Position numbers and translations under genes: made by a program
Shown here: piece after piece, positions 2,813 to 64,000 of the stretch
How positions within the stretch are numbered: position 1 is the first letter of the stretch
How the letters are laid out: each line of letters starts with the position of its first letter
Notes under the pieces: generated by a model
Seen by the model: the letters and a program-made list of their open reading frames with translations, nothing else
Database searches by the model: none
Told to the model about the DNA's origin: nothing
Assembly: GCA_963971305.1 (NCBI GenBank)
Contig: OZ020304.1
Location: 16,474,103-16,538,102, forward strand
Reading direction: 5' to 3'
From: Arcuatula senhousia
Taxonomy: Eukaryota > Mollusca > Bivalvia > Mytilida > Mytilidae
Length of the DNA stretch: 64,000 bases

Positions 2813-2815
2813 ATG

Positions 2816-22760: not shown

Positions 22761-23252
22761 TCTGTATTCAAGAGCATTCAAGTATATTTTTGTTTTAATT
22801 TTCCTATGCATGTAAAAGTAAACAATACATTTTGATTGTGTGAATACCATAAAATTTTAGCATGAAAATTTGAAAATATATTTTTGATTTATCGATAGAG
22901 CAAATAAGCAGAAAAAAGAACTGAAATTTCAACTCAGTCTGTAAATAGAAATTAGTAATTACATGAAATCGACTTTTATCAACGAAGAATAAATAATTAA
23001 TGGTGATGAACTGTAGAATTATATAATTAATTCAATAGTTTCAAACTATATGCCTGCCTTTTGCCATGGCTCATGGTCTTTAGTAATCAATGAAAATTAT
23101 TTACTGTTGAGTTTTTAAAAGCATTTAAATCAAATCCCTAATGACCACAACAGTGAAATAAATAGAGTGTATAGTAACCTTTGTACATTGAGATCGTTGT
23201 TAATTTAAACGTAATGAAGGATTTTAAACACAGTTGAAACGGACAGTTGAAA
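22761..23252. other. AT-rich upstream region of the receptor gene
   Basis: About 490 bases with no repeat or gene seen. Presumably holds the 5' UTR and promoter; I could not name a specific core promoter element. Confidence 0.4.
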
Positions 23253-37563: not shown

Positions 37564-38089
37564 AAATGTCCAGCTCTTTTTTTATATTTTGATTTTGAAG
37601 ATCAACCTAATAAAGACGAACTTGGTTTTAAGGGAGTTGTAATCCTTAAGCGGAATACGCTAAACTTATCAGACCGATGTTCCAACAATCTGAACCCGAG
37701 CATATGAGGTGATTAACTTTTACTTTGACAGAAAACTGGAAAAACAACAAAATGTATATGGTTTTTATTAAACCAATAGATATTTACATCACAACGATAT
37801 AAATCAATTTTCTGTAATGACTGTCTTTTGTTTTGATATATAATGAACGTAAAAATACATTGATAAAAAACATTTACCACAAAATAAATCTGAAAACACT
37901 TGCATCACACAAATCACTTTAACTATGCCAAGAGAAAATTAATTCATATATCCAAAATAATATGCTCACGAGAAACAACCTTCATTTCGTAATTAAAGAT
38001 GTAGATCACAGTTCATATGTTTTACCACAACATTTTCCTTGTTAATGCTAATAACTGAACATCACTTTAAGACATCTAGTCTCAACATA

Positions 38090-38166
38090 TCAAAAAATGT
38101 TCTTTCGTCGGATGGATCAACTTTCTTTAACCGTACTTTGTCCCCTTTACAAGCAAGATAAAACTC
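38090..38166 (-). CDS. IL-1-like gene, terminal exon h
   Basis: 77 nt including TGA (38090-38092), phase 1 in, acceptor CCTTTTCTTTTCAG|. Completes the signature with E-FYLAC and ends KGDKVRLKKVDPSDERNIF. Confidence 0.68.
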
Positions 38167-41100
38167 TGAAAAGAAAAGGAGAACTTGTTTCATAAAAAAG
38201 TACCTAAGGCAGTGTAAAAAATCAAAACCAAACTACTTGTTTGTGATTAAAAAATCAAAGTACTGAAAGAACTGGTAGCCGGGATAATATACAAATTTTT
38301 AAGATTGTTTCTGTTTAGTAGTCAAGTAGAGTAGTAATTTGATATTGGAAAATTCACTATAATGCGAACGTGTATATTGATATATATGTTAATTGATATG
38401 TGACAAGGCACTACGACCGTCAGCTAGCTTTTTATTGGTCAGTTACTGAAAGGCTATCGCATCCCGGTTAAAAACATTTATTAAAAAGTTAATTCAAAAG
38501 AAACGTTATATTCAAGAGTGTTCTTGGTGACCAATTTGTTTATTTCATACCGTAGATCCCGACTTGGATATTTAGAAAGTTCTCTAATGTGTCCTCAAGT
38601 TAAGGAAGCTCACAAATCATTTTTGAATTGCACGACACATACAAAGTATCCCATATGAAGCCTTAAAACTAATGTCACGAAGAGCCACTCCATATTATTA
38701 AGTTTCCTGGTCAATATACAACCACTTCTTATTTTCCAGTGACAATCAAAATGCGGACGCGAACAGGCCATCTCTGAGCATGTTGGTAAAAGTTAACAAG
38801 TCAACTTCATATAGCTCAGAACCTGCCGGGTAATGCCGTTTTGCCCCCCCCCCCTTCCGAAGTGCGACTGGGATATTGGAAGACTGTGATCGGGTTGAAT
38901 GAAAAATCCATGTCTTAATGAATCCCAGGGTCGTCAGGCTATCATGCGGAAAAACTGACCGCTATCCATAGTGATCCATTTTGGAGAAAAAGGAGCGATC
39001 AAATGATGAAATGATGATGAAGTGGAGGAAATGGGAACACAAATCCAATCGGGGATTAAAGTTTTGACTGTCACAAAAAACCTAATGTAGCCGAATTCGT
39101 TCAGTTACATGGGTATCAAATTTAATGGTTTCATCCCAACAAAGACATTTTGCTAGATCTAAAATTTTTTGGCTTGCACATGTTGCAATAAGGAATTAAT
39201 GTAAAATCAAACTAGCAACTTAGATCCGGACGATACATTTTGTTACGCCTGTAACACATTTCGTCTATGCAAGACGTCCACCAAAATTTTACAAGTTCGT
39301 TGGATTTTCATTTTCGTGGTTGACTGTCACCTACCAAAACCACGAATAATAATAAATCCTAAATTCCTTACAGTCAAAATATGCATTACTTGGTAGTTTG
39401 ATTATTACTAAAGTGCGTTCGGGAAGCCACAAAATCCATGATTTGTTCGGTGTAAGTTAGTATTCGAGTATTACCTTTGTATATTAACGATTGAAATTGA
39501 ATGCACCCGTTAGCCGTTTTATGGAGAGTAAAAAATCTTGGGTCGGGATAGTTAGATCTTTTAACGTCGAGTTCCATTGTCTGATATACCTGAAAAAATA
39601 GAAATGTTCATGTTTACATAAAGTTACACTTTTGTAAGAAAAAAAAAACAATATTTTATTCAAAACACACCAAAATATGATACACAACAAACACTTTGCA
39701 AATTGGCATGGTCCCGATGTCAAAGAATTCAATTAATCCCTAAACGAGAGGCATCTTATCCTTTTACACAAAAAACCAATATTTAGCCACAATAAGTCCG
39801 CTTAATTTCTAACCATAGGCTAGAGTGACTCTTGTGAGTTTTGAATAGACGAAACACGCGTTCGGCGTCCGAAAAATATAGCCACGAACTGTGCTATTAT
39901 TATTTTGATTTGTAAACCATTGTTCCAACAGTTTCACATGTTTTTGCCATCACGTACGGCCTGTGCCCACAAAAGTCATGACAGGATCTCAAAACACAAA
40001 TAAACAGGCTTGATGGTATTGGTGCAGATCGCATTTGCAGTCCGTTAAATTCATAGCAGTCAAAATCCCCTGTTAAATATCGGATATTAATATGTAAAGA
40101 ATAAATATGTTAAACAATGATTTGCACTTATTTTAGTCCAAGCTTGACATGACATTATGGCATTCAAACAAGCAAATGACCGACAAGTTGGTGATGATTA
40201 GTCTATGAATTGAAAGTCTTTTCTTTTCTAAAACAATCAGAAGCACTTGAGAACGTATTAATGGGATGAAACAAATCATTGTGTTTTCAGAAAATTTGTA
40301 TTCGCCAGTTTTTTTTTAGCTGTTCTTGTCCATTTTGATCAAAGGCGGGGGGATGGGGTAAGGTAACAATTTTATAGCTATCCAGTTCAAAAGGTATAAG
40401 TATACAGAAAATCTGAAGCAAGTTTTCTTTCTTCTCTTATTAAGCATCAATAAAAGATAATAAGATATGGAATATGTCTCCATTTGGTCCAAGTTATATT
40501 TACTGGGGTCATGACCCTATGAAGATAAAATTGACTTTTTCATGTTTTCTTAATATAGGGTAATCATATAATAATCGCTTGTTAATAATTTGTAGATATA
40601 GATAAAATATCGTGATTTCCGAGTTAAATAACTTTCTAGATATTCACTGAGTGATTTACTCGGGTGCAAATTTATTTAACCCTCGTGAAGTTTCCCGCGA
40701 AAATACGTAACATAGATTAATCGATAAATATTTAATTCATTATTTTGATGATCTAGTTGCTCAGATCATCTATGTAATAAATAGTATAACTAATTTTGGG
40801 TGACGAATATAAATTTTAATGTCACTTGTCGAATCCCGGTGTTATTTGACATTTGTGACATTAAAATTGATATAAAATAAAATATTAAGCTTTAAAAAAC
40901 ACTTAACTTGCAAATATATGAACTTTCATTAAATAGATGATTTATTTCGGAGCCTGTCGTTCAAAATGTCTATGGTACAAAGTTAAATGAATTAGATATT
41001 TTCTTTTGTGGCTGTCCAAGCACAGGGACTTGCTCCCCTCTATCAATATTATGTTTAAAAAGTATCCATTTGCCATACGAAATCAAAGCGCTAAAGCGTT

Positions 41101-44100
41101 TATAGGCAAGCGCGAAATATATAAGTACTGTAAAAGATTTTTCTTCTGTTAAAGTATAATTATTGTTCATAATGTTTGCGAAATAATAATTTTGGTGAGC
41201 GAAGAAATGGTCGTCATGCATATGCTCTCAAAGTTAATGAACACAATTACAGGTATCGTGTGTAGTCGGTATCGATTGAAACACCCCTTCGATTTAAATG
41301 CACTCGTCCCATTGATGGTTATTAAGTACTAAATTTATGAATGAACAAGACCGTATCCTTGCGTTGACCAATCAAATGAGAGAAATATTTATACAAACCA
41401 ATCAATAATAGATGAATACATAATTTATATTCTATCGCCTTAAACCAAATAGTCCGTCAGTAAAATGCAAAGGAATAAATAAAACTTCTGCCGATCCTAT
41501 AAAACGCCATTAAAAATGGAGATTTATAAAAGTGTGTATCATGTTAACAAATATTGAAAAGTAATAAAGAAAATAAAGCATTTTTCCAAGACTGGATGCA
41601 GGAAGATCACTCCGTCCAGACTGAAAAAAAAACAACGCGAAAATCATCACTACTCTATAGACTCCATAAGGCTTCGCTGCGCTTGCCTAAAAAACTGACT
41701 TGCTCCCCTCTATCAATATTATATTAGTATCCATTTGCCATACGAAAAAAGTTTTTTTTCGTATGGCAAATGGATACTAACATAATTTTGATAGAGGGGA
41801 GCAAGTCCCTGTGGTCCAAGTATCATTTATCAACCCATCTATGTTCATCGACCTGACATAGATGTTCGCATAGTACAAATTTACCAATGAAATGACAAAG
41901 GTAATTTTAAAAGTCTGCAATTAAAGTTACAAGTGGTTTAATCTTGTGTGTGTTTAAGGATAAATTCGCATAAATTCAAATACTTACAGTGATCTGTTTC
42001 GTCAGTAATTTTTGCCATGATGAGTTTACCACTGTCTTCGATTTTAAGGTAACGATGTGATCCATCTATATCTTGGCTGATTTTGCACTTGAAAAGGTTT
42101 TGGAATTTAACACAACGCATTCGTGGGACATACGTTATTCTTTTAATAAAGCTTTTGATTTCTAGTAGAACACTAACTTTATCATCTCCTGAAACAACAC
42201 CAAAAATGTGTTTTATATGAAGCACTCAAATTAAAAAAAAAACGTCTTAAAATTGAATATCAATACAGCTAACCTCCGCAATAAAAGCTGTTTGGCCTAA
42301 TAGTATGTTACGCACCAATAGAACAAACGCTGAAAATTCATTCATTAAACTTTTAAAGTCGTTTTTTTTCATTTATTATGTCTCCCAAACGAAAGTTTGG
42401 AGACATATTGTTTTTACTCTGTTTCTTATTCTTTTTATTATTTTTTTTCTTCTTTCTTCCCATGAACGTGTCCGGTAGTTTTCTTGGAAACGACTTGAAG
42501 GATTTTAACGAAACATTGTACGATGATAGCAGGGTTATTGGAGGTGTGCATGGACATTTCGAAATTTTCAAAATGGCCGCCGATTCCGTGTTATTAGCTA
42601 AAGTTCATAATATAGGACATTGCAATATCTCGGTAACCTAGGTGCGTAGGAGGCTGAAATTTTGTAGGTGAATAGAGCAAAAGGAGCTCTTAAATAATAC
42701 GGAAAAAAAATTTGATGCGATATTTACGGTTTTCGAGTTATTTGCTAAAATGTGATTTTTCGGGCCCGAAAATGCGAAAATCGTCAGAATGCTTCGATTT
42801 CGACAAAATTGGTATCTAGGGGTTCTAAATGATGGCAAATCATATAACGAGGTCAAAAATGCGTTCGTTTGGGAGACATTTTGTGTTGGGCATCCCCAAC
42901 ACAGTCAGTACTTGTTTTAATTGAAAGAGGTAATTAATTGTCGTTCTCTTTATGCCCATGCAGTTGTGTCCAGATTGTGGCCATAGGTTTAGCAAAGTCA
43001 AGCAATAAGATGAGAAAAAAGGTATGAATGTCATTTTAGATTGAGAAGGATCGGTACCCTTATTTAGAACTTTCTATGATACTGGGTATCAGGCAGGCAT
43101 GGTATTGTCAACAATCAGAACTATATTGTCGTAATTGAAACGGTCAGAAACCTAACTTTGATTCAAATATTTGATTTAGAACCGTTTGCTTTAAGATACT
43201 ATAGACTATACTATATTAAAAGTTGATCTTTTTGGGGGAATGTACGAACTGATGCATTTCAAACAACAATCAATGTAAACTATTTTGGTTGTAACTATAA
43301 CTGTAATTACTTGTAACTATATTGAAGGGCAAAACGCATGTAACAGAAGAAGACGAAAAACATTATTTAAGTTAATCTACCTCTTGTTGTAAGCTCTGTT
43401 GTATCGAGAAAAATTGATATTTCGTATGCATTAACCGAGTCCTTTTTACCAACTCTTTCTACAATCTGAAACAAAAAATATTCAGTTGTTAAGATCCTGA
43501 TGTAACGTCTCATCATAAAACATGTTTCAACTCGCTTTTAATTTTGAAATGCCAGTCGAAGTCGGGACCATTTTATCTTCAATTTATCTTGTATGCTTTT
43601 GGTTTTGTTCGTATTGGTTCTTTAGCATTTTAGACTGATCATACCACTTCGGTAGTTTTGTTATTAGCTTAGTTTCAAAAAGTAGTTCCTAATACGGGAC
43701 CATAAATGTTCTTTTTGGCTAAATTCTTAAGTAAATAACATGGTTCTTTTTTTTACTTTTGTCAATAAAATTACCGCCCAATGTCACTTTTGTTACCTAC
43801 CAAAATGCCTTTAAAAGTTTGTTTAAACATTATTAGCTGAATAATATCATATTTCCGTCACACGTACTTATTTTAAAGTGCAAACGTTACCAGAGAAGCG
43901 TTTATCTTGTTTTCTGTTGTGTAAAGTAGATATTTCAGACTCTCTAATAAAATCCAGTGGTTCCAATTAATCGATAATTTGCGATTTATGGCTTTGAGAA
44001 TGTCTCCATCTCTAAAACATTAAGAACAAAATGAATATAAAAAATTAAGGCTTCGACACAATGATTGTTTGTAACTTCTTTTGTCAGTTGTTACCATAGA

Positions 44101-45117
44101 ACCACGATTACAATGATTCCTGATAAATGTTCTATTAAAGGTAAAAATAATAATAAGATGCTATAAAAGTCTTTTGAAACTTTAATTTTTGATCGTTTAT
44201 ATGTCCAGTCAAAATCGACTTGTATGAGACAAAAAAGAACACTTATTGTGTCTTCTCCACACAGTTGGAGTGTAGTTAAATGCAACAACATTCAGTTTGT
44301 TGTTTATTTATCTTTCTGTTTGTGTTTATATTCATTCTGTCTGAAAGATGAGTTAATAAAAGACGTTTTTTATATTGACTAAAAACCTACTTCAACTTGA
44401 TATCTAGCGTCTGTTCAATGCCACTTTGGTTTTGAATATAATGCCCATTGTTTGTAGTTAATAATGCAAATCCTGAATTCAATTCGTCACCATTCTGCAG
44501 TTTAAAAATGATGCTCGATCTTGTTTCTACCTGCTAAAATAAAACCGATATGTCATATGTATGTTATTCATGATCAAACTATGGCGTCTTACTTATTGAA
44601 TGGTTAAAAAATGCTAAAAAGCTTTCTCCAAAACATTATACAAGTACGATACTCTTAGGCTCGATATTCTCCCCCGGTTTCTCCACCATACCACAGTTAC
44701 TGCTTACATGGCTTATATAGTGTTTGTCATTTTTATCACACCAAATAATTCATTTCCTAGATCTTCAAGACATGCTGCGATTGATTGCGTTTGCTCTTGA
44801 AATGATCTGAAGATGATGGGCAGCATCTGAGTAGGTAAATATGTTTAATTAAGAGTTTCATTTACTGTACTCTAGAGAACATTGTTTACTTTATCATATA
44901 TCATATCACCAACATGGTTTACTCATACTTGTAAAAAAGATGACAACCGAAAAATAAGAATTAATTTGGTTTCTATACACACCTGCGAATTTTCTTCTTC
45001 TGAACATTGGCAATTTAATGCTGTGTCCCCTTCATCTTTTAAACATTTGCCCTCTTCATTATTTAACCATAAACTCGTTAAGTCTGATATACAATTTTCT
45101 TCAGCTCTGATAAGGCC
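38090..45117 (-). CDS. IL-1/IL-18-like beta-trefoil gene, 8 exons, 5' end missing
   Basis: Eight minus-strand exons with matching phases (0-0, 0-2, 2-0, 0-1, 1-1, 1-0, 0-1, 1-stop) sum to 1026 nt, exactly 341 codons plus stop. Residues ~185-341 fit the single-domain beta-trefoil of the IL-1 family: FKCKI (193-197) and RYLKIEDSGKLIMAK (206-220) for the first repeat, SSLFICVL (247-254) and VYQTMELDV (279-287) for the second, then DPRFF...CIQFQS, and FQSLIYKEFYLAC (310-322). The last corresponds to the IL-1 family signature and most closely to the IL-18 version, which also ends in LAC and lacks the Pro and Thr of IL-1. It is followed by VRLKKVDPSDERNIF, similar to the IL-18 end. Residues 1-184 would be a pro-region or another domain, with no recognised motif. 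IL-1 cytokines are usually considered a vertebrate family; a remote trefoil of another kind (for example FGF-like) is the main alternative. Confidence 0.65.
38736..39085. mobile_element. SINE-like family B, rearranged intronic copy
   Basis: 38736-39000 is a plus-strand B head and centre; about 39000-39085 is a B 3' block in minus orientation (GATGATGAAGTGGAGGAAAT). The two parts join head to tail inverted, inside the last intron of the IL-1-like gene. Confidence 0.6.
39475..39589 (-). CDS. IL-1-like gene, exon g
   Basis: 115 nt, phase 0 in, 1 out, acceptor TATTTTTTCAG| and donor AAAG|GTAATA. Carries NYPDPRFFTLHK and ANGCIQFQSLIYK, the first half of the family signature. Confidence 0.68.
39918..40069 (-). 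CDS. IL-1-like gene, exon f
   Basis: Enters in phase 1 through ATATTTAACAG|. Encodes DFDCYEFNGLQMRSAPIPSS and LFICVLRSCHDFCGHRPYVM. The donor is the weakest point of the model: the in-phase choices are ATG|GTTTAC (39918, used here), ACT|GTTGGA (left edge 39930) and TAC|GTGATG (left edge 39954). Without splicing, the frame ends at a TAA at 39900-39902. Confidence 0.5.
40070..41020. other. Intron of the IL-1-like gene
   Basis: No exon or repeat family recognised. A short inverted pair (TTTTAATGTCAC near 40816-40827 and GTGACATTAAAA near 40855-40866) is the only structure. Confidence 0.45.
41021..41812. repeat. Inverted repeat unit plus perfect palindrome in intron
   Basis: 41698-41750 and 41754-41806 form a near-perfect 53-bp-arm palindrome (ACTTGCTCCCCTCTATCAAT ... 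ATTTGCCATACGAAAAAA). One arm is present again, singly, at 41023-41081. It could form a strong cruciform or RNA hairpin. Confidence 0.75.
41988..42188 (-). CDS. IL-1-like gene, exon e (start of trefoil)
   Basis: 201 nt, phase 1 in, 1 out, acceptor GGTGTTGTTTCAG| and consensus donor |GTAAGTA. Carries FKCKISQDIDGSHRYLKIED and SGKLIMAKITDETDH; the ITDETD end can be compared with the TDSD segment of IL-18. Confidence 0.72.
42377..42880. mobile_element. Hairpin-headed miniature element (TGTCTCCCAAACGAA type)
   Basis: Inverted ends TGTCTCCCAAACGAA (42379-42393) and TTCGTTTGGGAGACA (42864-42878). The left end is itself a hairpin, ATGTCTCCCAAACGAAAG with TTTGGAGACAT. The 88-codon open frame across the Phe/Leu-rich run is judged non-coding. 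Located in an intron of the IL-1-like gene. Confidence 0.65.
42882..43380. other. Intron of the IL-1-like gene
   Basis: Nothing beyond a short hairpin next to the element (TGTTGGGCATCCCCAACA, 42884-42901). Confidence 0.4.
43381..43465 (-). CDS. IL-1-like gene, exon d
   Basis: 85 nt, phase 0 in, 1 out, acceptor TTTTTTGTTTCAG| and donor |GTAGAT. Encodes IVERVGKKDSVNAYEISIFL. Confidence 0.6.
43891..44011 (-). CDS. IL-1-like gene, exon c
   Basis: 121 nt, phase 2 in, 0 out, acceptor AATGTTTTAG| and donor CTG|GTAACG. Encodes DGDILKAINRKLSINWNHWI and LLESLKYLLYTTENKINASL. Confidence 0.58.
44391..44530 (-). CDS. IL-1-like gene, exon b
   Basis: 140 nt, phase 0 in, 2 out, strong acceptor TTTATTTTAGCAG| and donor |GTAGGT. 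Encodes VETRSSIIFKLQNGDELNSG and FALLTTNNGHYIQNQ. Confidence 0.62.
44983..45117 (-). CDS. IL-1-like gene, first visible exon (a)
   Basis: 45 codons, phase 0-0, acceptor TATTTATGTAG| and donor CAG|GTGTGT. Acidic and Cys-bearing (AEENCISDLTSLWLNNEEGK; later CLKDEGDTALNCQCSEEENS). It cannot contain the start codon, because the frame is closed upstream by a stop, so at least one earlier exon exists, perhaps beyond the satellite array. Confidence 0.6.
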
Positions 45118-45390
45118 CTACATAAATAGTGAATATTATAAATATTCATCAAGGTTAAACGGTCTTTTAAAGTCTGATGTGATATTTTAAAATCGAAACT
45201 CCAACTTAACGCTCAATGGTCAATCATTATGATAATACCATTTACCACTTGGTGTATATCAACTTTTTTTCTGTATTACAGACTGTATAACTCAAAAAGA
45301 TAGAGCATGATTGTTTAGATTAAGGAAAAACTTTGTGAAATGGTTTAAATTAATGAAAAATCCTAAATCCATATCCTTTGACAAATCTAA
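45118..45390. other. Upstream intron or promoter of the IL-1-like gene
   Basis: AT-rich DNA between the first visible exon and the satellite; no first exon found. Confidence 0.4.
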
Positions 45391-46060
45391 GGTAGTACTC
45401 CACAATTAATTTATTTAGCTCATTTTTGCATGTGCTCGACGTTGACTATTTTGTCACGGGTTCTTGCAATCGCTTAAACTGCTATATGCACTTTAAACTA
45501 AGTGGTGTTCCAAACTACGGGCATGTTTAGTCGTGTCTAGTGCCGTATTTGGTTTCTTTGTTGTACTCGTTGCCCCTAGCAACTCTTAACATTTGTCAAA
45601 AATTTGGGGACAAAAATACGCAAAAATCGGGGTTTTGTCCTTTTTTTGAACGTTGCCAGTAGTCGAGCTTTCGGTTCAGGTGAAACGTAACATGTATGAA
45701 ATGAAAGCCCGAAAACAGTCCTTTCTTTTAAGACCAAATAAACCTATCCGACTTCGGCTCTTTTTTCCGCTAAAATTGTTCAAACTTAAAAATCTAAAAA
45801 TAGCACATTTAAATTTAAGCCCATCCGCTGGTCACCATGCTCAGCCGGAAGCGACGCTTTATGATCATTGGTATTGATTTTTTCGAAATTATTCTTTAAA
45901 TCAATAACCGTGGATCGTACTTTTTATATAACGGATCCAGATTTTTCATTTGTCTTGTTTTAAGACCAAAACGAATCAATATTTTCATTTAACAAATAAG
46001 TTCACAGGGGCCACATACGAAAACAATACTGTGAAAAAATCCTAATTGTGGAGTACTACC
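45391..46060. mobile_element. 670-bp TIR-bounded block of the satellite unit (first copy)
   Basis: 18-bp perfect terminal inverted repeats GGTAGTACTCCACAATTA (45391-45408; inverted at 46043-46060). No coding capacity of known family; resembles a non-autonomous DNA transposon that became the seed of the satellite. In the inner units an AT dinucleotide lies on both sides (ccatAT|...|ATaatgc), compatible with a short target duplication. Confidence 0.7.
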
Positions 46061-49000
46061 ATAATGCTTTTGCATTTTTTGAAAATTTAACATGAGTTGC
46101 ATTTTTCTCTTCTTGAGTATGTAACCACTTGAAGAATACCGGATATTATGTTTTTTTTAGTGTTTTACCATAGTAACGCACGCTCAAAGACGGAAGCCCT
46201 TTTCTGATCAAGCTCTTTTTTGGACATTTTCCTGCAATAACGTTAGATTCTTTCCCCGTTTGTTTTGAATCAAATTTTGTATTTTCGTAACAAAATTGGT
46301 ATTCTGTTGTGCTTAAGTCATTTTCTAGCCTATTTCAAACATATTTGTGAAAATTTGGAAGATTTCCGTGAAAAAATCTGCAATAATGGCGTCCATGGAA
46401 ACACATCATCAAAATTTGCTTAAAATTTGCATAGCAAGCTATAATGCCTTGCGTTTCTATTCAAGCCGACTAAAAATTACAATTTTATGATTTACATACG
46501 GGGAAATATACTATATTGTGTAATTTTTATTTCTTCCGGGGAAATTATAAACGTTGTTAGCGTTACATACAGCATAACCAGCTGTACAAAATATAACGTT
46601 ATTGACGATATTTTCAAAAATAAGCATGTTTGGTTGCTATGGGCATTAATGCTTAATAACTGATATTTTTCCCAAAATTTTTGAAACAAGTAATTCTCAA
46701 ATATATTAGCTTTATTTTCAACAATTAAACCAAGGCCTAAAATCAAGATATACTCTCAAAATATTAATGAGAATAATGCCATATGGTAGTACTCCACAAT
46801 TAATTTATTTAGCTCATTTTTGCATGTGCTCGACGTTGACTATTTTGTCACGGGTTCTTGCAATCGCTTAAACTGCTATATGCACTTTAAACTAAGTGGT
46901 GTTCCAAACTACGGGCATGTTTAGTCGTGTCTAGTGCCGTATTTGGTTTCTTTGTTGTACTCGTTGCCCCTAGCAACTCTTAACATTTGTCAAAAATTTG
47001 GGGACAAAAATACGCAAAAATCGGGGTTTTGTCCTTTTTTTGAACGTTGCCAGTAGTCGAGCTTTCGGTTCAGGTGAAACGTAACATGTATGAAATGAAA
47101 GCCCGAAAACAGTCCTTTCTTTTAAGACCAAATAAACCTATCCGACTTCGGCTCTTTTTTCCGCTAAAATTGTTCAAACTTAAAAATCTAAAAATAGCAC
47201 ATTTAAATTTAAGCCCATCCGCTGGTCACCATGCTCAGCCGGAAGCGACGCTTTATGATCATTGGTATTGATTTTTTCGAAATTATTCTTTAAATCAATA
47301 ACCGTGGATCGTACTTTTTATATAACGGATCCAGATTTTTCATTTGTCTTGTTTTAAGACCAAAACGAATCAATATTTTCATTTAACAAATAAGTTCACA
47401 GGGGCCACATACGAAAACAATACTGTGAAAAAATCCTAATTGTGGAGTACTACCATAATGCTTTTGCATTTTTTGAAAATTTAACATGAGTTGCATTTTT
47501 CTCTTCTTGAGTATGTAACCACTTGAAGAATACCGGATATTATGTTTTTTTTAATGTTTTACCATAGTAACGCACGCTCAAAGACGGAAGCCCTTTTCTG
47601 ATCAAGCTCTTTTTTGGACATTTTCCTGCAATAACGTTAGATTCTTTCCCCGTTTGTTTTGAATCAAATTTTGTATTTTCGTAACAAAATTGGTATTCTG
47701 TTGTGCTTAAGTCATTTTCTAGCCTATTTCAAACATATTTGTGAAAATTTGGAAGATTTCCGTGAAAAAATCTGCAATAATGGCGTCCATGGAAACACAT
47801 CATCAAAATTTGCTTAAAATTTGCATAGCAAGCTATAATGCCTTGCGTTTCTATTCAAGCCGACTAAAAATTACAATTTTATGATTTACATACGGGGAAA
47901 TATACTATATTGTGTAATTTTTATTTCTTCCGGGGAAATTATAAACGTTGTTAGCGTTACATACAGCATAACCAGCTGTACAAAATATAACGTTATTGAC
48001 GATATTTTCAAAAATAAGCATGTTTGGTTGCTATGGGCATTAATGCTTAATAACTGATATTTTTCCCAAAATTTTTGAAACAAGTAATTCTCAAATATAT
48101 TAGCTTTATTTTCAACAATTAAACCAAGGCCTAAAATCAAGATATACTCTCAAAATATTAATGAGAATAATGCCATATGGTAGTACTCCACAATTAATTT
48201 ATTTAGCTCATTTTTGCATGTGCTCGACGTTGACTATTTTGTCACGGGTTCTTGCAATCGCTTAAACTGCTATATGCACTTTAAACTAAGTGGTGTTCCA
48301 AACTACGGGCATGTTTAGTCGTGTCTAGTGCCGTATTTGGTTTCTTTGTTGTACTCGTTGCCCCTAGCAACTCTTAACATTTGTCAAAAATTTGGGGACA
48401 AAAATACGCAAAAATCGGGGTTTTGTCCTTTTTTTGAACGTTGCCAGTAGTCGAGCTTTCGGTTCAGGTGAAACGTAACATGTATGAAATGAAAGCCCGA
48501 AAACAGTCCTTTCTTTTAAGACCAAATAAACCTATCCGACTTCGGCTCTTTTTTCCGCTAAAATTGTTCAAACTTAAAAATCTAAAAATAGCACATTTAA
48601 ATTTAAGCCCATCCGCTGGTCACCATGCTCAGCCGGAAGCGACGCTTTATGATCATTGGTATTGATTTTTTCGAAATTATTCTTTAAATCAATAACCGTG
48701 GATCGTACTTTTTATATAACGGATCCAGATTTTTCATTTGTCTTGTTTTAAGACCAAAACGAATCAATATTTTCATTTAACAAATAAGTTCACAGGGGCC
48801 ACATACGAAAACAATACTGTGAAAAAATCCTAATTGTGGAGTACTACCATAATGCTTTTGCATTTTTTGAAAATTTAACATGAGTTGCATTTTTCTCTTC
48901 TTGAGTATGTAACCACTTGAAGAATACCGGATATTATGTTTTTTTTAGTGTTTTACCATAGTAACGCACGCTCAAAGACGGAAGCCCTTTTCTGATCAAG

Positions 49001-50966
49001 CTCTTTTTTGGACATTTTCCTGCAATAACGTTAGATTCTTTCCCCGTTTGTTTTGAATCAAATTTTGTATTTTCGTAACAAAATTGGTATTCTGTTGTGC
49101 TTAAGTCATTTTCTAGCCTATTTCAAACATATTTGTGAAAATTTGGAAGATTTCCGTGAAAAAATCTGCAATAATGGCGTCCATGGAAACACATCATCAA
49201 AATTTGCTTAAAATTTGCATAGCAAGCTATAATGCCTTGCGTTTCTATTCAAGCCGACTAAAAATTACAATTTTATGATTTACATACGGGGAAATATACT
49301 ATATTGTGTAATTTTTATTTCTTCCGGGGAAATTATAAACGTTGTTAGCGTTACATACAGCATAACCAGCTGTACAAAATATAACGTTATTGACGATATT
49401 TTCAAAAATAAGCATGTTTGGTTGCTATGGGCATTAATGCTTAATAACTGATATTTTTCCCAAAATTTTTGAAACAAGTAATTCTCAAATATATTAGCTT
49501 TATTTTCAACAATTAAACCAAGGCCTAAAATCAAGATATACTCTCAAAATATTAATGAGAATAATGCCATATGGTAGTACTCCACAATTAATTTATTTAG
49601 CTCATTTTTGCATGTGCTCGACGTTGACTATTTTGTCACGGGTTCTTGCAATCGCTTAAACTGCTATATGCACTTTAAACTAAGTGGTGTTCCAAACTAC
49701 GGGCATGTTTAGTCGTGTCTAGTGCCGTATTTGGTTTCTTTGTTGTACTCGTTGCCCCTAGCAACTCTTAACATTTGTCAAAAATTTGGGGACAAAAATA
49801 CGCAAAAATCGGGGTTTTGTCCTTTTTTTGAACGTTGCCAGTAGTCGAGCTTTCGGTTCAGGTGAAACGTAACATGTATGAAATGAAAGCCCGAAAACAG
49901 TCCTTTCTTTTAAGACCAAATAAACCTATCCGACTTCGGCTCTTTTTTCCGCTAAAATTGTTCAAACTTAAAAATCTAAAAATAGCACATTTAAATTTAA
50001 GCCCATCCGCTGGTCACCATGCTCAGCCGGAAGCGACGCTTTATGATCATTGGTATTGATTTTTTCGAAATTATTCTTTAAATCAATAACCGTGGATCGT
50101 AATTTTTATATAACGGATCCAGATTTTTCATTTGTCTTGTTTTAAGACCAAAACGAATCAATATTTTCATTTAACAAATAAGTTCACAGGGGCCACATAC
50201 GAAAACAATACTGTGAAAAAATCCTAATTGTGGAGTACTACCATAATGCTTTTGCATTTTTTGAAAATTTAACATGAGTTGCATTTTTCTCTTCTTGAGT
50301 ATGTAACCACTTGAAGAATACCGGATATTATGTTTTTTTTAGTGTTTTACCATAGTAACGCACGCTCAAAGACGGAAGCCCTTTTCTGATCAAGCTCTTT
50401 TTTGGACATTTTCCTGCAATAACGTTAGATTCTTTCCCCGTTTGTTTTGAATCAAATTTTGTATTTTCGTAACAAAATTGGTATTCTGTTGTGCTTAAGT
50501 CATTTTCTAGCCTATTTCAAACATATTTGTGAAAATTTGGAAGATTTCCGTGAAAAAATCTGCAATAATGGCGTCCATGGAAACACATCATCAAAATTTG
50601 CTTAAAATTTGCATAGCAAGCTATAATGCCTTGCGTTTCTATTCAAGCCGACTAAAAATTACAATTTTATGATTTACATACGGGGAAATATACTATATTG
50701 TGTAATTTTTATTTCTTCCGGGGAAATTATAAACGTTGTTAGCGTTACATACAGCATAACCAGCTGTACAAAATATAACGTTATTGACGATATTTTCAAA
50801 AATAAGCATGTTTGGTTGCTATGGGCATTAATGCTTAATAACTGATATTTTTCCCAAAATTTTTGAAACAAGTAATTCTCAAATATATTAGCTTTATTTT
50901 CAACAATTAAACCAAGGCCTAAAATCAAGATATACTCTCAAAATATTAATGAGAATAATGCCATAT
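45391..50966. repeat. Four 1394-bp units without the 357-bp insertion
   Basis: Empty-site units: the uninterrupted junction GTTGCCAGTAGTCGAGC is present in all four (for example 45651-45667). Units 1-3 have GATCGTACTTTTTATA; unit 4 has GATCGTAATTTTTATA, shared with all later units. Confidence 0.95.
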
Positions 50967-51237
50967 GGTAGTACTCCACAATTAATTTATTTAGCTCATT
51001 TTTGCATGTGCTCGACGTTGACTATTTTGTCACGGGTTCTTGCAATCGCTTAAACTGCTATATGCACTTTAAACTAAGTGGTGTTCCAAACTACGGGCAT
51101 GTTTAGTCGTGTCTAGTGCCGTATTTGGTTTCTTTGTTGTACTCGTTGCCCCTAGCAACTCTTAACATTTGTCAAAAATTTGGGGACAAAAATACGCAAA
51201 AATCGAGGTTTTGTCCTTTTTTTGAACGTTGCCAGTA

Positions 51238-51594
51238 CACTGCAAACAATGCCACACATGTGAAAGACATGTAAAATGCCACACCTGTGTCACATGTGAT
51301 TCACATGCGTTCCACATGTGTGTCACATGCATTTATAGACTCACATGTGACACATGCGTGTATTACATGTGTGTCACATGTGTGAGGCACATGCGTTTCA
51401 CATATGTGAAACACATGTTGAAATTTCACATAAGCACGATGCATGCATAAAATCATATGAATATATTTCAAATTATTTTGAAATCTACACATGTGATACA
51501 TGTGTGGCAGGAAACATCTAATTCACATGCGTGTCACACATATGTGAAACACATGTGACACATATGTATCACATGCGTGGCATTTTTACCGGTG
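51238..51594. mobile_element. 357-bp CACATGTG-rich miniature transposon, copy 1
   Basis: Inserted between duplicated TA (51236-51237, 51595-51596). The ends are imperfect inverted repeats (CACTGCAAACAATGCCACAC at left; complement of the right end CACCGGTAAAAATGCCACGC). The interior is packed with CACATGTG/CACATGCG palindromes. A TA target suggests Tc1/mariner-type mobilisation, but the ends do not let me name a family. Further copies follow at intervals of 1753 bp. Confidence 0.88.
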
Positions 51595-52990
51595 TAGTCG
51601 AGCTTTCGGTTCAGGTGAAACGTAACATGTATGAAATGAAAGCCCGAAAACAGTCCTTTCTTTTAAGACCAAATAAACCTATCCGACTTCGGCTCTTTTT
51701 TCCGCTAAAATTGTTCAAACTAAAAAATCTAAAAATAGCACATTTAAATTTAAGCCCATCCGCTGGTCACCATGCTCAGCCGGAAGCGACGCTTTATGAT
51801 CATTGGTATTGATTTTTTCGAAATTATTCTTTAAATCAATAACCGTGGATCGTAATTTTTATATAACGGATCCAGATTTTTCATTTGTCTTGTTTTAAGA
51901 CCAAAACGAATCAATATTTTCATTTAACAAATAAGTTCACAGGGGCCACATACGAAAACAATACTGTGAAAAAATCCTAATTGTGGAGTACTACCATAAT
52001 GCTTTTGCATTTTTTGAAAATTTAACATGAGTTGCATTTTTCTCTTCTTGAGTATGTAACCACTTGAAGAATACCGGATATTATGTTTTTTTTAGTGTTT
52101 TACCATAGTAACGCACGCTCAAAGACGGAAGCCCTTTTCTGATCAAGCTCTTTTTTGGACATTTTCCTGCAATAACGTTAGATTCTTTCCCCGTTTGTTT
52201 TGAATCAAATTTTGTATTTTCGTAACAAAATTGGTATTCTGTTGTGCTTAAGTCATTTTCTAGCCTATTTCAAACATATTTGTGAAAATTTGGAAGATTT
52301 CCGTGAAAAAATCTGCAATAATGGCGTCCATGGAAACACATCATCAAAATTTGCTTAAAATTTGCATAGCAAGCTATAATGCCTTGCGTTTCTATTCAAG
52401 CCGACTAAAAATTACAATTTTATGATTTACATACGGGGAAATATACTATATTGTGTAATTTTTATTTCTTCCGGGGAAATTATAAACGTTGTTAGCGTTA
52501 CATACAGCATAACCAGCTGTACAAAATATAACGTTATTGACGATATTTTCAAAAATAAGCATGTTTGGTTGCTATGGGCATTAATGCTTAATAACTGATA
52601 TTTTTCCCAAAATTTTTGAAACAAGTAATTCTCAAATATATTAGCTTTATTTTCAACAATTAAACCAAGGCCTAAAATCAAGATATACTCTCAAAATATT
52701 AATGAGAATAATGCCATATGGTAGTACTCCACAATTAATTTATTTAGCTCATTTTTGCATGTGCTCGACGTTGACTATTTTGTCACGGGTTCTTGCAATC
52801 GCTTAAACTGCTATATGCACTTTAAACTAAGTGGTGTTCCAAACTACGGGCATGTTTAGTCGTGTCTAGTGCCGTATTTGGTTTCTTTGTTGTACTCGTT
52901 GCCCCTAGCAACTCTTAACATGTGTCAAAAATTTGGGGACAAAAATACGCCAAAATCGGGGTTTTGTCCTTTTTTTGAACGTTGCCAGTA

Positions 52991-53347
52991 CACTGCAAAC
53001 AATGCCACACATGTGAAAGACATGTAAAATGCCACACCTGTGTCACATGTGATTCACATGCGTTCCACATGTGTGTCACATGCATTTATAGACTCACATG
53101 TGACACATGCGTGTATTACATGTGTGTCACATGTGTGAGGCACATGCGTTTCACATATGTGAAACACATGTTGAAATTTCACATAAGCACGATGCATGCA
53201 TAAAATCATATGAATATATTTCAAATTATTTTGAAATCTACACATGTGATACATGTGTGGCAGGAAACATCTAATTCACATGCGTGTCACACATATGTGA
53301 AACACATGTGACACATATGTATCACATGCGTGGCATTTTTACCGGTG
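52991..53347. mobile_element. 357-bp miniature transposon, copy 2
   Basis: Amplified with the satellite unit, not an independent insertion; see 51238. Confidence 0.88.
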
Positions 53348-54743
53348 TAGTCGAGCTTTCGGTTCAGGTGAAACGTAACATGTATGAAATGAAAGCCCGA
53401 AAACAGTCCTTTCTTTTAAGACCAAATAAACCTATCCGACTTCGGCTCTTTTTTCCGCTAAAATTGTTCAAACTTAAAAATCTAAAAATAGCACATTTAA
53501 ATTTAAGCCCATCCGCTGGTCACCATGCTCAGCCGGAAGCGACGCTTTATGATCATTGGTATTGATTTTTTCGAAATTATTCTTTAAATCAATAACCGTG
53601 GATCGTAATTTTTATATAACGGATCCAGATTTTTCATTTGTCTTGTTTTAAGACCAAAACGAATCAATATTTTCATTTAACAAATAAGTTCACAGGGGCC
53701 ACATACGAAAACAATACTGTGAAAAAATCCTAATTGTGGAGTACTACCATAATGCTTTTGCATTTTTTGAAAATTTAACATGAGTTGCATTTTTCTCTTC
53801 TTGAGTATGTAACCACTTGAAGAATACCGGATATTATGTTTTTTTTAGTGTTTTACCATAGTAACGCACGCTCAAAGACGGAAGCCCTTTTCTGATCAAG
53901 CTCTTTTTTGGACATTTTCCTGCAATAACGTTAGATTCTTTCCCCGTTTGTTTTGAATCAAATTTTGTATTTTCGTAACAAAATTGGTATTCTGTTGTGC
54001 TTAAGTCATTTTCTAGCCTATTTCAAACATATTTGTGAAAATTTGGAAGATTTCCGTGAAAAAATCTGCAATAATGGCGTCCATGGAAACACATCATCAA
54101 AATTTGCTTAAAATTTGCATAGCAAGCTATAATGCCTTGCGTTTCTATTCAAGCCGACTAAAAATTACAATTTTATGATTTACATACGGGGAAATATACT
54201 ATATTGTGTAATTTTTATTTCTTCCGGGGAAATTATAAACGTTGTTAGCGTTACATACAGCATAACCAGCTGTACAAAATATAACGTTATTGACGATATT
54301 TTCAAAAATAAGCATGTTTGGTTGCTATGGGCATTAATGCTTAATAACTGATATTTTTCCCAAAATTTTTGAAACAAGTAATTCTCAAATATATTAGCTT
54401 TATTTTCAACAATTAAACCAAGGCCTAAAATCAAGATATACTCTCAAAATATTAATGAGAATAATGCCATATGGTAGTACTCCACAATTAATTTATTTAG
54501 CTCATTTTTGCATGTGCTCGACGTTGACTATTTTGTCACGGGTTCTTGCAATCGCTTAAACTGCTATATGCACTTTAAACTAAGTGGTGTTCCAAACTAC
54601 GGGCATGTTTAGTCGTGTCTAGTGCCGTATTTGGTTTCTTTGTTGTACTCGTTGCCCCTAGCAACTCTTAACATGTGTCAAAAATTTGGGGACAAAAATA
54701 CACCAAAATCGGGGTTTTGTCCTTTTTTTGAACGTTGCCAGTA

Positions 54744-55100
54744 CACTGCAAACAATGCCACACATGTGAAAGACATGTAAAATGCCACACCTGTGTCACA
54801 TGTGATTCACATGCGTTCCACATGTGTGTCACATGCATTTATAGACTCACATGTGACACATGCGTGTATTACATGTGTGTCACATGTGTGAGGCACATGC
54901 GTTTCACATATGTGAAACACATGTTGAAATTTCACATAAGCACGATGCATGCATAAAATCATATGAATATATTTCAAATTATTTTGAAATCTACACATGT
55001 GATACATGTGTGGCAGGAAACATCTAATTCACATGCGTGTCACACATATGTGAAACACATGTGACACATATGTATCACATGCGTGGCATTTTTACCGGTG
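54744..55100. mobile_element. 357-bp miniature transposon, copy 3
   Basis: Amplified with the satellite unit; see 51238. Confidence 0.88.
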
Positions 55101-56496
55101 TAGTCGAGCTTTCGGTTCAGGTGAAACGTAACATGTATGAAATGAAAGCCCGAAAACAGTCCTTTCTTTTAAGACCAAATAAACCTATCCGACTTCGGCT
55201 CTTTTTTCCGCTAAAATTGTTCAAACTTAAAAATCTAAAAATAGCACATTTAAATTTAAGCCCATCCGCTGGTCACCATGCTCAGCCGGAAGCGACGCTT
55301 TATGATCATTGGTATTGATTTTTTCGAAATTATTCTTTAAATCAATAACCGTGGATCGTAATTTTTATATAACGGATCCAGATTTTTCATTTGTCTTGTT
55401 TTAAGACCAAAACGAATCAATATTTTCATTTAACAAATAAGTTCACAGGGGCCACATACGAAAACAATACTGTGAAAAAATCCTAATTGTGGAGTACTAC
55501 CATAATGCTTTTGCATTTTTTGAAAATTTAACATGAGTTGCATTTTTCTCTTCTTGAGTATGTAACCACTTGAAGAATACCGGATATTATGTTTTTTTTA
55601 GTGTTTTACCATAGTAACGCACGCTCAAAGACGGAAGCCCTTTTCTGATCAAGCTCTTTTTTGGACATTTTCCTGCAATAACGTTAGATTCTTTCCCCGT
55701 TTGTTTTGAATCAAATTTTGTATTTTCGTAACAAAATTGGTATTCTGTTGTGCTTAAGTCATTTTCTAGCCTATTTCAAACATATTTGTGAAAATTTGGA
55801 AGATTTCCGTGAAAAAATCTGCAATAATGGCGTCCATGGAAACACATCATCAAAATTTGCTTAAAATTTGCATAGCAAGCTATAATGCCTTGCGTTTCTA
55901 TTCAAGCCGACTAAAAATTACAATTTTATGATTTACATACGGGGAAATATACTATATTGTGTAATTTTTATTTCTTCCGGGGAAATTATAAACGTTGTTA
56001 GCGTTACATACAGCATAACCAGCTGTACAAAATATAACGTTATTGACGATATTTTCAAAAATAAGCATGTTTGGTTGCTATGGGCATTAATGCTTAATAA
56101 CTGATATTTTTCCCAAAATTTTTGAAACAAGTAATTCTCAAATATATTAGCTTTATTTTCAACAATTAAACCAAGGCCTAAAATCAAGATATACTCTCAA
56201 AATATTAATGAGAATAATGCCATATGGTAGTACTCCACAATTAATTTATTTAGCTCATTTTTGCATGTGCTCGACGTTGACTATTTTGTCACGGGTTCTT
56301 GCAATCGCTTAAACTGCTATATGCACTTTAAACTAAGTGGTGTTCCAAACTACGGGCATGTTTAGTCGTGTCTAGTGCCGTATTTGGTTTCTTTGTTGTA
56401 CTCGTTGCCCCTAGCAACTCTTAACATGTGTCAAAAATTTGGGGACAAAAATACGCCAAAATCGGGGTTTTGTCCTTTTTTTGAACGTTGCCAGTA

Positions 56497-56853
56497 CACT
56501 GCAAACAATGCCACACATGTGAAAGACATGTAAAATGCCACACCTGTGTCACATGTGATTCACATGCGTTCCACATGTGTGTCACATGCATTTATAGACT
56601 CACATGTGACACATGCGTGTATTACATGTGTGTCACATGTGTGAGGCACATGCGTTTCACATATGTGAAACACATGTTGAAATTTCACATAAGCACGATG
56701 CATGCATAAAATCATATGAATATATTTCAAATTATTTTGAAATCTACACATGTGATACATGTGTGGCAGGAAACATCTAATTCACATGCGTGTCACACAT
56801 ATGTGAAACACATGTGACACATATGTATCACATGCGTGGCATTTTTACCGGTG
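56497..56853. mobile_element. 357-bp miniature transposon, copy 4
   Basis: Amplified with the satellite unit; see 51238. Confidence 0.88.
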
Positions 56854-58249
56854 TAGTCGAGCTTTCGGTTCAGGTGAAACGTAACATGTATGAAATGAAA
56901 GCCCGAAAACAGTCCTTTCTTTTAAGACCAAATAAACCTATCCGACTTCGGCTCTTTTTTCCGCTAAAATTGTTCAAACTTAAAAATCTAAAAATAGCAC
57001 ATTTAAATTTAAGCCCATCCGCTGGTCACCATGCTCAGCCGGAAGCGACGCTTTATGATCATTGGTATTGATTTTTTCGAAATTATTCTTTAAATCAATA
57101 ACCGTGGATCGTAATTTTTATATAACGGATCCAGATTTTTCATTTGTCTTGTTTTAAGACCAAAACGAATCAATATTTTCATTTAACAAATAAGTTCACA
57201 GGGGCCACATACGAAAACAATACTGTGAAAAAATCCTAATTGTGGAGTACTACCATAATGCTTTTGCATTTTTTGAAAATTTAACATGAGTTGCATTTTT
57301 CTCTTCTTGAGTATGTAACCACTTGAAGAATACCGGATATTATGTTTTTTTTAGTGTTTTACCATAGTAACGCACGCTCAAAGACGGAAGCCCTTTTCTG
57401 ATCAAGCTCTTTTTTGGACATTTTCCTGCAATAACGTTAGATTCTTTCCCCGTTTGTTTTGAATCAAATTTTGTATTTTCGTAACAAAATTGGTATTCTG
57501 TTGTGCTTAAGTCATTTTCTAGCCTATTTCAAACATATTTGTGAAAATTTGGAAGATTTCCGTGAAAAAATCTGCAATAATGGCGTCCATGGAAACACAT
57601 CATCAAAATTTGCTTAAAATTTGCATAGCAAGCTATAATGCCTTGCGTTTCTATTCAAGCCGACTAAAAATTACAATTTTATGATTTACATACGGGGAAA
57701 TATACTATATTGTGTAATTTTTATTTCTTCCGGGGAAATTATAAACGTTGTTAGCGTTACATACAGCATAACCAGCTGTACAAAATATAACGTTATTGAC
57801 GATATTTTCAAAAATAAGCATGTTTGGTTGCTATGGGCATTAATGCTTAATAACTGATATTTTTCCCAAAATTTTTGAAACAAGTAATTCTCAAATATAT
57901 TAGCTTTATTTTCAACAATTAAACCAAGGCCTAAAATCAAGATATACTCTCAAAATATTAATGAGAATAATGCCATATGGTAGTACTCCACAATTAATTT
58001 ATTTAGCTCATTTTTGCATGTGCTCGACGTTGACTATTTTGTCACGGGTTCTTGCAATCGCTTAAACTGCTATATGCACTTTAAACTAAGTGGTGTTCCA
58101 AACTACGGGCATGTTTAGTCGTGTCTAGTGCCGTATTTGGTTTCTTTGTTGTACTCGTTGCCCCTAGCAACTCTTAACATGTGTCAAAAATTTGGGGACA
58201 AAAATACGCCAAAATCGGGGTTTTGTCCTTTTTTTGAACGTTGCCAGTA

Positions 58250-58606
58250 CACTGCAAACAATGCCACACATGTGAAAGACATGTAAAATGCCACACCTGT
58301 GTCACATGTGATTCACATGCGTTCCACATGTGTGTCACATGCATTTATAGACTCACATGTGACACATGCGTGTATTACATGTGTGTCACATGTGTGAGGC
58401 ACATGCGTTTCACATATGTGAAACACATGTTGAAATTTCACATAAGCACGATGCATGCATAAAATCATATGAATATATTTCAAATTATTTTGAAATCTAC
58501 ACATGTGATACATGTGTGGCAGGAAACATCTAATTCACATGCGTGTCACACATATGTGAAACACATGTGACACATATGTATCACATGCGTGGCATTTTTA
58601 CCGGTG
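58250..58606. mobile_element. 357-bp miniature transposon, copy 5
   Basis: Amplified with the satellite unit; see 51238. Confidence 0.88.
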
Positions 58607-60002
58607 TAGTCGAGCTTTCGGTTCAGGTGAAACGTAACATGTATGAAATGAAAGCCCGAAAACAGTCCTTTCTTTTAAGACCAAATAAACCTATCCGACT
58701 TCGGCTCTTTTTTCCGCTAAAATTGTTCAAACTTAAAAATCTAAAAATAGCACATTTAAATTTAAGCCCATCCGCTGGTCACCATGCTCAGCCGGAAGCG
58801 ACGCTTTATGATCATTGGTATTGATTTTTTCGAAATTATTCTTTAAATCAATAACCGTGGATCGTAATTTTTATATAACGGATCCAGATTTTTCATTTGT
58901 CTTGTTTTAAGACCAAAACGAATCAATATTTTCATTTAACAAATAAGTTCACAGGGGCCACATACGAAAACAATACTGTGAAAAAATCCTAATTGTGGAG
59001 TACTACCATAATGCTTTTGCATTTTTTGAAAATTTAACATGAGTTGCATTTTTCTCTTCTTGAGTATGTAACCACTTGAAGAATACCGGATATTATGTTT
59101 TTTTTAGTGTTTTACCATAGTAACGCACGCTCAAAGACGGAAGCCCTTTTCTGATCAAGCTCTTTTTTGGACATTTTCCTGCAATAACGTTAGATTCTTT
59201 CCCCGTTTGTTTTGAATCAAATTTTGTATTTTCGTAACAAAATTGGTATTCTGTTGTGCTTAAGTCATTTTCTAGCCTATTTCAAACATATTTGTGAAAA
59301 TTTGGAAGATTTCCGTGAAAAAATCTGCAATAATGGCGTCCATGGAAACACATCATCAAAATTTGCTTAAAATTTGCATAGCAAGCTATAATGCCTTGCG
59401 TTTCTATTCAAGCCGACTAAAAATTACAATTTTATGATTTACATACGGGGAAATATACTATATTGTGTAATTTTTATTTCTTCCGGGGAAATTATAAACG
59501 TTGTTAGCGTTACATACAGCATAACCAGCTGTACAAAATATAACGTTATTGACGATATTTTCAAAAATAAGCATGTTTGGTTGCTATGGGCATTAATGCT
59601 TAATAACTGATATTTTTCCCAAAATTTTTGAAACAAGTAATTCTCAAATATATTAGCTTTATTTTCAACAATTAAACCAAGGCCTAAAATCAAGATATAC
59701 TCTCAAAATATTAATGAGAATAATGCCATATGGTAGTACTCCACAATTAATTTATTTAGCTCATTTTTGCATGTGCTCGACGTTGACTATTTTGTCACGG
59801 GTTCTTGCAATCGCTTAAACTGCTATATGCACTTTAAACTAAGTGGTGTTCCAAACTACGGGCATGTTTAGTCGTGTCTAGTGCCGTATTTGGTTTCTTT
59901 GTTGTACTCGTTGCCCCTAGCAACTCTTAACATGTGTCAAAAATTTGGGGACAAAAATACGCCAAAATCGGGGTTTTGTCCTTTTTTTGAACGTTGCCAG
60001 TA

Positions 60003-63865: not shown

Positions 63866-64000
63866 TAGTCGAGCTTTCGGTTCAGGTGAAACGTAACATG
63901 TATGAAATGAAAGCCCGAAAACAGTCCTTTCTTTTAAGACCAAATAAACCTATCCGACTTCGGCTCTTTTTTCCGCTAAAATTGTTCAAACTTAAAAATC

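Follow-up and report, generated by a model that had tools for sequence, protein, structure and literature searches.

The closest described systems are proteins of the IL-1 family that carry a PDZ domain. In lumpfish, nIL-1F is described as a protein of 352 residues with an IL-1 domain and a PDZ domain, encoded by seven coding exons (PMC7144542). For nIL-1Fm, a pre-domain and the lack of a signal peptide are reported, and in trout the protein has caspase-1 and thrombin sites and a C-terminal portion of 169 residues that antagonises IL-1beta effects in cells (PMC4929537). Other papers state that IL-1 receptor-like genes exist in invertebrates, that an IL-1 gene is unknown outside vertebrates and that no invertebrate IL-1-like molecule has been characterized (PMC9020223); that invertebrates and jawless vertebrates lack IL1 (PMC9382457); that the origin of IL-1 lies with early vertebrates (PMC12108812); and that IL-33 is restricted to mammals, the origins of IL-18 and IL-33 being left unknown (PMC5861070). 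Among the open papers listed in the literature searches, judged by title and abstract opening, none reports a molluscan IL-1 gene. Here we describe a gene of the mussel Arcuatula senhousia that may belong beside these systems. It lies in a stretch of 64,000 nucleotides (C2:16474103-16538102), referred to as the window, and positions are window positions unless stated otherwise.

The gene is real. It is a spliced gene on the minus strand that runs from 45117 to 38062, with nine exons that have usable splice sites. It probably encodes a protein with two domains and a length of about 334 residues or more, in which a PDZ-like N-terminal domain (exons c-e) is followed by a C-terminal domain related to IL-18, IL-33 and IL-1, the whole being a leaderless precursor. 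The exons and the candidate poly(A) signal are as follows.

44983..45117, minus strand: exon a, 45 open codons without an ATG; acceptor tatgtag, donor gtgtgt
44740..44826, minus strand: exon b, with an ATG at its start (44826)
44391..44530, minus strand: exon c, in which the PDZ-like region begins; ends in phase 2; weak tblastn matches
43891..44011, minus strand: exon d, PDZ-like core LKDGDILKAINRKLSINWNHWILLESLKYLL; tblastn matches
43381..43465, minus strand: exon e, in which the PDZ-like region finishes; ends in phase 1
41988..42188, minus strand: exon f, which covers the linker plus the opening third of the IL-1-like domain; phase 1 at its end
39918..40069, minus strand: exon x, 152 nucleotides, central part of the IL-1-like domain; phase 1 at its start and phase 0 at its end
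39475..39589, minus strand: exon g, with the IL-1-like sequence TMELDVKRSNYPDPRFFTLHKTANGCIQFQSLIYK; ends in phase 1
38062..38165, minus strand: exon h, EFYLACKGDKVRLKKVDPSDERTFFDMLRLDVLK and then the stop codon
37764..37769, minus strand: AATAAA, candidate poly(A) signal about 290 nucleotides past the stop

Joined together, the nine exons give 1140 nucleotides including the stop codon. A sequence-only reading of this locus had proposed eight minus-strand exons with interlocking phases and a total length divisible by three. The strand and the splice sites of that proposal stood, but without exon x the lengths sum to 988 nucleotides, which is no multiple of three, and the phase 1 end of exon f does not fit the phase 0 start of exon g. 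The donor of exon f, which had been flagged as doubtful, looked so because exon x had been missed, and exon x restores the frame. The end of the gene had been placed at 38090, whereas the stop codon ends at 38062; the C-terminus is indeed split by an intron, but it reads VRLKKVDPSDERTFF instead of ending in ERNIF. A stop-free frame of 379 codons would arise by chance at this base composition with a probability of about 2e-13, a figure that is overstated since the exons were chosen to be open.

A search of 5.8 billion proteins with the window protein returned seven mutually related relatives with E-values of 2.7e-74 to 7.9e-66 and 42-44% identity over 74-91% of the query. Three of them are named; they are listed as uncharacterized and come from Mytilus galloprovincialis, M. 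edulis and M. trossulus. Four are found on contigs of 1189-1474 bases, and their proteins begin with M; these look like spliced transcripts, because contigs of this size fit the reading frame but not an intron-bearing gene. The protein searches reach only sequences that share exact 5-residue words with the query, and within this scope further searches with the alignment and with the C-terminal region added a single protein, P0008. No relative was confirmed among viral contigs, and the NCBIfam scan gave unrelated chance matches only. The relatives begin with MSD or MATASGN, and by eye no signal sequence is evident. Two of them (P0004 and P0005) have an acidic insert between both domains, around DNDIEIDIGD and NDSDIEIDLG, which the other aligned relatives lack and which may represent an optional exon that contains a protease site. 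An equivalent linker exon was sought in the window intron between exons e and f, where there was no clear counterpart.

When the animal's own genome (1.036 Gb) was searched with the window gene, nine matches to the gene itself and two weak others were obtained. One of the two weak matches proved to be a second gene, at C2:33.50-33.51 Mb (L018, positions 2988-8493 and about 9477). Its exons c', d', e', f', x' and g' lie in the order of the window gene, and the intron phases (2, 0, 1, 1, 0, 1) match. Exon h' (about L018:9477) was picked by eye among 24 candidates and is the least sure exon of this paralogue. The joined protein is 26.6% identical to the window protein over 305 residues (E 5.7e-27), and the search in the reverse direction returned seven stretches of the paralogue's own locus and otherwise the window gene only (E 0.027). 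A weak match on C6 was considered as a third copy and dropped; it contains IPSSPAYGVYI, which we take to be a reverse transcriptase motif. The relative P0007, used as the query, gave three further weak matches in this genome (E 0.125-1.19).

In terms of exon support, exons d, f, x and g have tblastn matches with all seven relatives and exon c with six (weak, best E 9e-5), while exons a, b, e and h, of which e and h are short, have no tblastn match of their own with the seven. The matches to exon x reach E 6e-19. The donor of exon x (atg/gtttac) is unusual, but the exon is supported because the aligned relatives continue ungapped across its end, because P0008 (M. galloprovincialis) seems to run into an intron after the same residue (VGVM/VRKY), and because the paralogue has its own donor at this border (atg/gtatgg). 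Reading into the intron beyond exon x gives VYKSK and then a stop in the window, and P0008, which ends with VRKY at this place, also lacks the exon f part. Given this early stop and the similar end of P0008, intron retention would yield a truncated form; the read-through forms are possibly truncated isoforms or annotation errors.

At the 5' end, exon b opens with an ATG, whereas exon a contains none and could be coding or 5' untranslated. The ATG at 44826 is a possible start that would give a protein of 334 residues, near the length of the relatives (331-373 residues), and the N-terminus encoded by exon b is not conserved among the relatives in the alignment. When the whole relatives were compared by tblastn with the window and 20 kb further upstream, nothing was found for exons a or b. 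Searches with the N-terminal pieces of the relatives gave nothing convincing as a first exon among the matches listed (P0001 and part of P0002). About 270 bp upstream of exon a begins a tandem array (45388-64000, and positions 25-269 of L005) with units of 1394 bp and then of 1753 bp, the latter with a 359-bp addition. Units compared base by base (3 and 6) are 99.86-100% identical. The array may be a young macrosatellite or an assembly effect, and it may hide a missing first exon.

The C-terminal domain comprises about 175 residues encoded by exons f, x, g and h. Pfam scans were made against 24,736 models with HMMER, the filters of which discard most matches above about 0.1. The window protein listed only IL33_bt and IL1 at E<=10, with E-values of 0.029 for the whole protein and 0.010 for the C-terminal piece with IL33_bt, and of 0.1 and 0.04, respectively, with IL1. 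For groups of sequences, C-terminal pieces from six of the seven relatives (P0003 left out) formed one set, and addition of the window piece gave a set of seven (A6 and A7). Among these seven pieces, four match IL1 (best E 0.0098), one matches IL33_bt and none matches another family; the best full-length relative scores 15.1 bits with IL1. Searches of the PDB gave a similar picture. With the window piece as phmmer query, IL-33 takes the top four of ten rows (E 0.022-0.032), and with the profile of the seven pieces, IL-18 takes the top two of three rows (E 0.11 and 0.19), followed by RsgI5 (0.64), which we take to be an AbfB-like trefoil, bacterial and carbohydrate-related.

Profiles were also compared directly with hhalign, using an IL-1 set made up of seven human proteins of the IL-1 family and an FGF set of four FGFs. 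The seven pieces scored 32.2 over 63 columns against the IL-1 set (P 1.7e-4, probability 49), and none of 150 shuffled-column controls reached this score (mean 12.6, maximum 20.1). The six Mytilus-type pieces alone scored 29.5 (maximum of 60 shuffles 19.5), a value that is independent of the choice of motif in the sequence-only reading because the window sequence was excluded. The window piece alone scored 30.8. A set of five chosen by the analyst (A10: the window piece, the paralogue and three of the seven relatives) scored 33.7 over 119 columns, and all eight pieces scored 30.3 over 120 columns, nearly the whole domain, with maxima of 60 shuffles of 18.1 and 18.6, respectively. When each human member in turn was taken out of the set and scored against the remaining six, IL-33 scored 34.7, IL-1alpha 50.2, IL-18 50.7 and the rest 96.7-130.2, so that the mussel domain places just under the most remote accepted member, IL-33. 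A profile comparison with both IL-1 and FGF had been called for by the sequence-only reading. Against the FGF set the five mussel sets scored 23.3, 14.1, 17.5, 19.9 and 18.3, in short alignments (23.3 over 24 columns, 19.9 over 30), and the IL-1 score was higher in all five.

The motif at the border of exon g reads FQSLIYKEFYLAC in the window protein and FESLIYKDYYLSW in six aligned relatives, the latter being nearer to the IL-1 signature. The paralogue reads FESLLYK at the same exon border, and human IL-18 from the PDB reads FESSSYEGYFLAC. A shortened IL-1 signature is printed in PMC7144542.

The N-terminal part had been taken by the sequence-only reading for a long pro-region. It is not featureless but PDZ-like, which points to fish nIL-1F and not to IL-18. 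The full-length profile had Shank1 and CNK as its sole PDB matches (E 0.11 and 0.16), and the N-terminal profile had the same two in the top two of 13 rows (E 0.016 and 0.03), followed by designed trefoils (0.16); Shank1 and CNK are both PDZ proteins. Against a set of six PDZ domains, the N-terminal profile scored 22.3 with hhalign, which none of 150 shuffles reached, and the 8-member N-terminal set scored 28.6 (maximum of 60 shuffles 19.1). The paralogue gave the clearest match, with an E-value of 1.1e-4 for Pfam PDZ using the N-terminal piece (23.0 bits, cut-off 23.2) and of 5.7e-4 using the whole protein. Its full protein matched PDZ-bearing proteins in 19 PDB rows (E 0.057-1.9), some of which are taken to be PDZ-bearing from their names. 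These matches of the paralogue make it likely that the N-terminal domain is PDZ-like.

A number of results weigh against the reading of the gene as PDZ-like plus IL-1-like. All Pfam trefoil scores lie below the gathering cut-offs (for the window protein, IL33_bt 16.3 against 27 bits and IL1 14.0 against 25 bits). When the seven full-length relatives were scanned singly, three matched IL1, three matched nothing and one matched an unrelated family only. The C-terminal piece of the paralogue alone matches no Pfam family, and its hhalign scores of 18.9 for IL-1 and 19.9 for FGF are at about the height of the shuffled maxima of the other sets. The strict IL-1 signature in its PROSITE form requires P and T, and FQSLIYKEFYLAC has neither, although human IL-18, an accepted member, fails at the same two places as the mussel proteins. 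In the PDB, the full-length 8-member profile found PDZ proteins and no interleukin, full-length P0002 alone found no match, and P0007 alone found nothing but two entries with the name Tako8 (E 8). The A10 profile placed RsgI5 first (0.033), followed by IL-33 four times (0.19-0.22). Against the IL-1 set, the mussel sequences score lower (29.5-33.7) than all seven accepted human members (34.7-130.2), and the test by itself is unable to separate IL-1 from other cytokine trefoils, because FGF2 alone scores 29.9. In three of the five mussel sets the FGF score also exceeded the maximum of its own 60 shuffles (seven pieces, 23.3 against 19.9; A10, 19.9 against 19.2; eight pieces, 18.3 against 17.3). 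AlphaFold2 models of two relatives, each built from an alignment of seven, had a mean predicted local distance difference test (pLDDT) score of 35.2 and 35.8; Foldseek with the second of these low-scoring models gave nothing at E<=0.001 and was not used. For the N-terminal domain, the window piece alone is not PDZ-like (10.7), Pfam PDZ was found in one of seven N-terminal pieces (0.083) with chance families equally good (0.077), and genuine PDZ domains reach 67.8-126.2 when compared with one another, against 34.2 for the paralogue.

On balance, a cytokine-type trefoil is favoured, and within that type IL-1 over FGF. Each of the two domain calls is weak and was made separately, and together they recall the architecture of one kind of IL-1 protein; in our judgement, the coincidence of PDZ and IL-1 weighs more than any single E-value. 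The likeness to IL-1, IL-18 and IL-33 that the sequence-only reading had proposed is partly borne out, by Pfam, by the top PDB rows and by hhalign scores above the shuffles, but no single score exceeds a curated cut-off and the strict signature is absent. The window protein is not classed as a formal IL-1 family member, because it lacks that signature, falls below the cut-offs and has an unproven fold. The mussel protein is IL-1-like, probably by descent, and it likely works like an IL-1 precursor. What the data show is the gene with its exons and relatives, a paralogue of matching architecture, the likeness to PDZ and a statistical likeness to IL-1 proteins; from these we infer a trefoil fold, homology to nIL-1F, release, a receptor and signalling. 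In the mechanism proposed, the precursor would stay in the cell for want of a secretion signal, with the PDZ-like part as a pro-domain or anchor. If the linker were cleaved or the cell damaged, the C-terminal domain would be released and would then bind a receptor of the immunoglobulin-TIR (Ig-TIR), IL-1R-like type as an agonist, or as an antagonist like fish nIL-1F. At least 110 TIR matches occur in the genome, which is consistent with an Ig-TIR receptor and not specific to it.

The alternative that survives best, which we nevertheless regard as unlikely, is that the protein is related to IL-1 by descent and is no cytokine, being an intracellular PDZ scaffold in which the trefoil has, for example, a nuclear or sensor role. 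PDZ domains typically bind peptides inside the cell, the relatives' starts show no evident signal sequence by eye, and the receptor enters only through the mechanism proposed above. Precursors of the IL-1 family, however, usually lack a leader. A PDZ domain is also present in fish nIL-1F, and the C-terminal 169 residues of trout nIL-1F are reported to inhibit IL-1beta (PMC4929537).

Somewhat less likely still is that the C-terminal domain is another beta-trefoil, AbfB-like and sugar-binding or FGF-like, that stands next to a PDZ-like domain and looks like IL-1 through a common hairpin, FES-x(2)-Y-x(2)-[YF]-[YF]-L. RsgI5, which heads the list when the paralogue is part of the profile and takes third place with the mussel-type profile, is aligned on this same motif, and the scores of FGF2 against the IL-1 set and of the mussel sets against FGF agree with such a domain. 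Unlike IL1 and IL33_bt, though, the AbfB, FGF and ricin-type models appear in no Pfam scan at E<=10, and the FGF profile match is weaker and shorter than that to IL-1. The pairing of PDZ with IL-1 has, moreover, already been reported (PMC7144542).

It is improbable that the exons are real but the C-terminal domain has a fold other than a trefoil and matches IL-1 by chance over about 50 residues. The single E-values of 0.01-0.2, the pLDDT of 35-36 and the extent of the Pfam and first PDB matches, which span about 40-57 residues near the end only, would fit this explanation, but IL-33, IL-18 and IL1 lead both the Pfam and PDB searches, none of the 150 shuffles reaches the score, and the aligned stretch extends to 119 columns when the paralogue is included. 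Horizontal transfer from a vertebrate is very improbable: the relatives were found only in mussel-type sequences by the exact-word searches and the combination of PDZ and IL-1 is reported from fish, but two intron-rich genes at 26.6% identity in this genome argue for long residence, and the likeness to vertebrate proteins is very low.

The window contains other features besides this gene. Pieces of a BEL/Pao-type retrotransposon (Peptidase_A17, reverse transcriptase, DUF1759 and integrase zinc-binding) lie at 195-4519 on the minus strand. At 23238-24500 on the plus strand, a single open frame of 420 residues encodes the ligand-binding and membrane parts of a Cys-loop receptor, and is perhaps a retrocopy or an intronless receptor gene.

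If the reading as a leaderless PDZ-like and IL-1-like precursor is true, the gene supplies a candidate ligand for the orphan IL-1R-like receptors of invertebrates and a clue to the form of the ancestor, and the question becomes testable in a common farmed animal. There are hints that the messenger family may be older than vertebrates. A wider proposal, quite possible but advanced here only tentatively, is that IL-1-type ligands are older than the protostome-deuterostome split. The ancestor would have been a leaderless PDZ-trefoil precursor, kept as fish nIL-1F and as the mussel family, with two copies in this genome; IL-1beta, IL-18 and IL-33 would have lost the PDZ domain, and the Ig-TIR receptors of invertebrates would always have had such ligands.

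Compared to known systems, FGF resembles the mussel domain as a further cytokine-type beta-trefoil that exceeds its own shuffles in three of five comparisons, and differs in its weaker profile match (probability 5 over 24 columns, against probability 49 over 63 columns for IL-1). The AbfB-like trefoil RsgI5 has the hairpin FES-x(2)-Y-x(2)-Y-[YF]-[LI] in common with the mussel proteins, while the AbfB family is absent from all Pfam scans made (E<=10). IL-33 is the top PDB and Pfam match of the window protein, and its N-terminal part differs from the PDZ-like one. IL-18 has the motif F-x-S-x-x-Y-x-x-[FY]-[FY]-L-A-C in common and is the top PDB match of the mussel-type profile, with E-values of only 0.1-0.2, and a forced alignment to human IL-18 gives 22-24% identity; IL-18 is not known to have a PDZ domain. 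Fish nIL-1F belongs to a different phylum and is likened by its described layout and not by sequence. It has both a PDZ and an IL-1 domain in one protein of about 350 residues (352 in lumpfish, 331-373 in the mussel relatives), and the seven coding exons of the lumpfish gene correspond in number to the seven exons c-h of the mussel gene.

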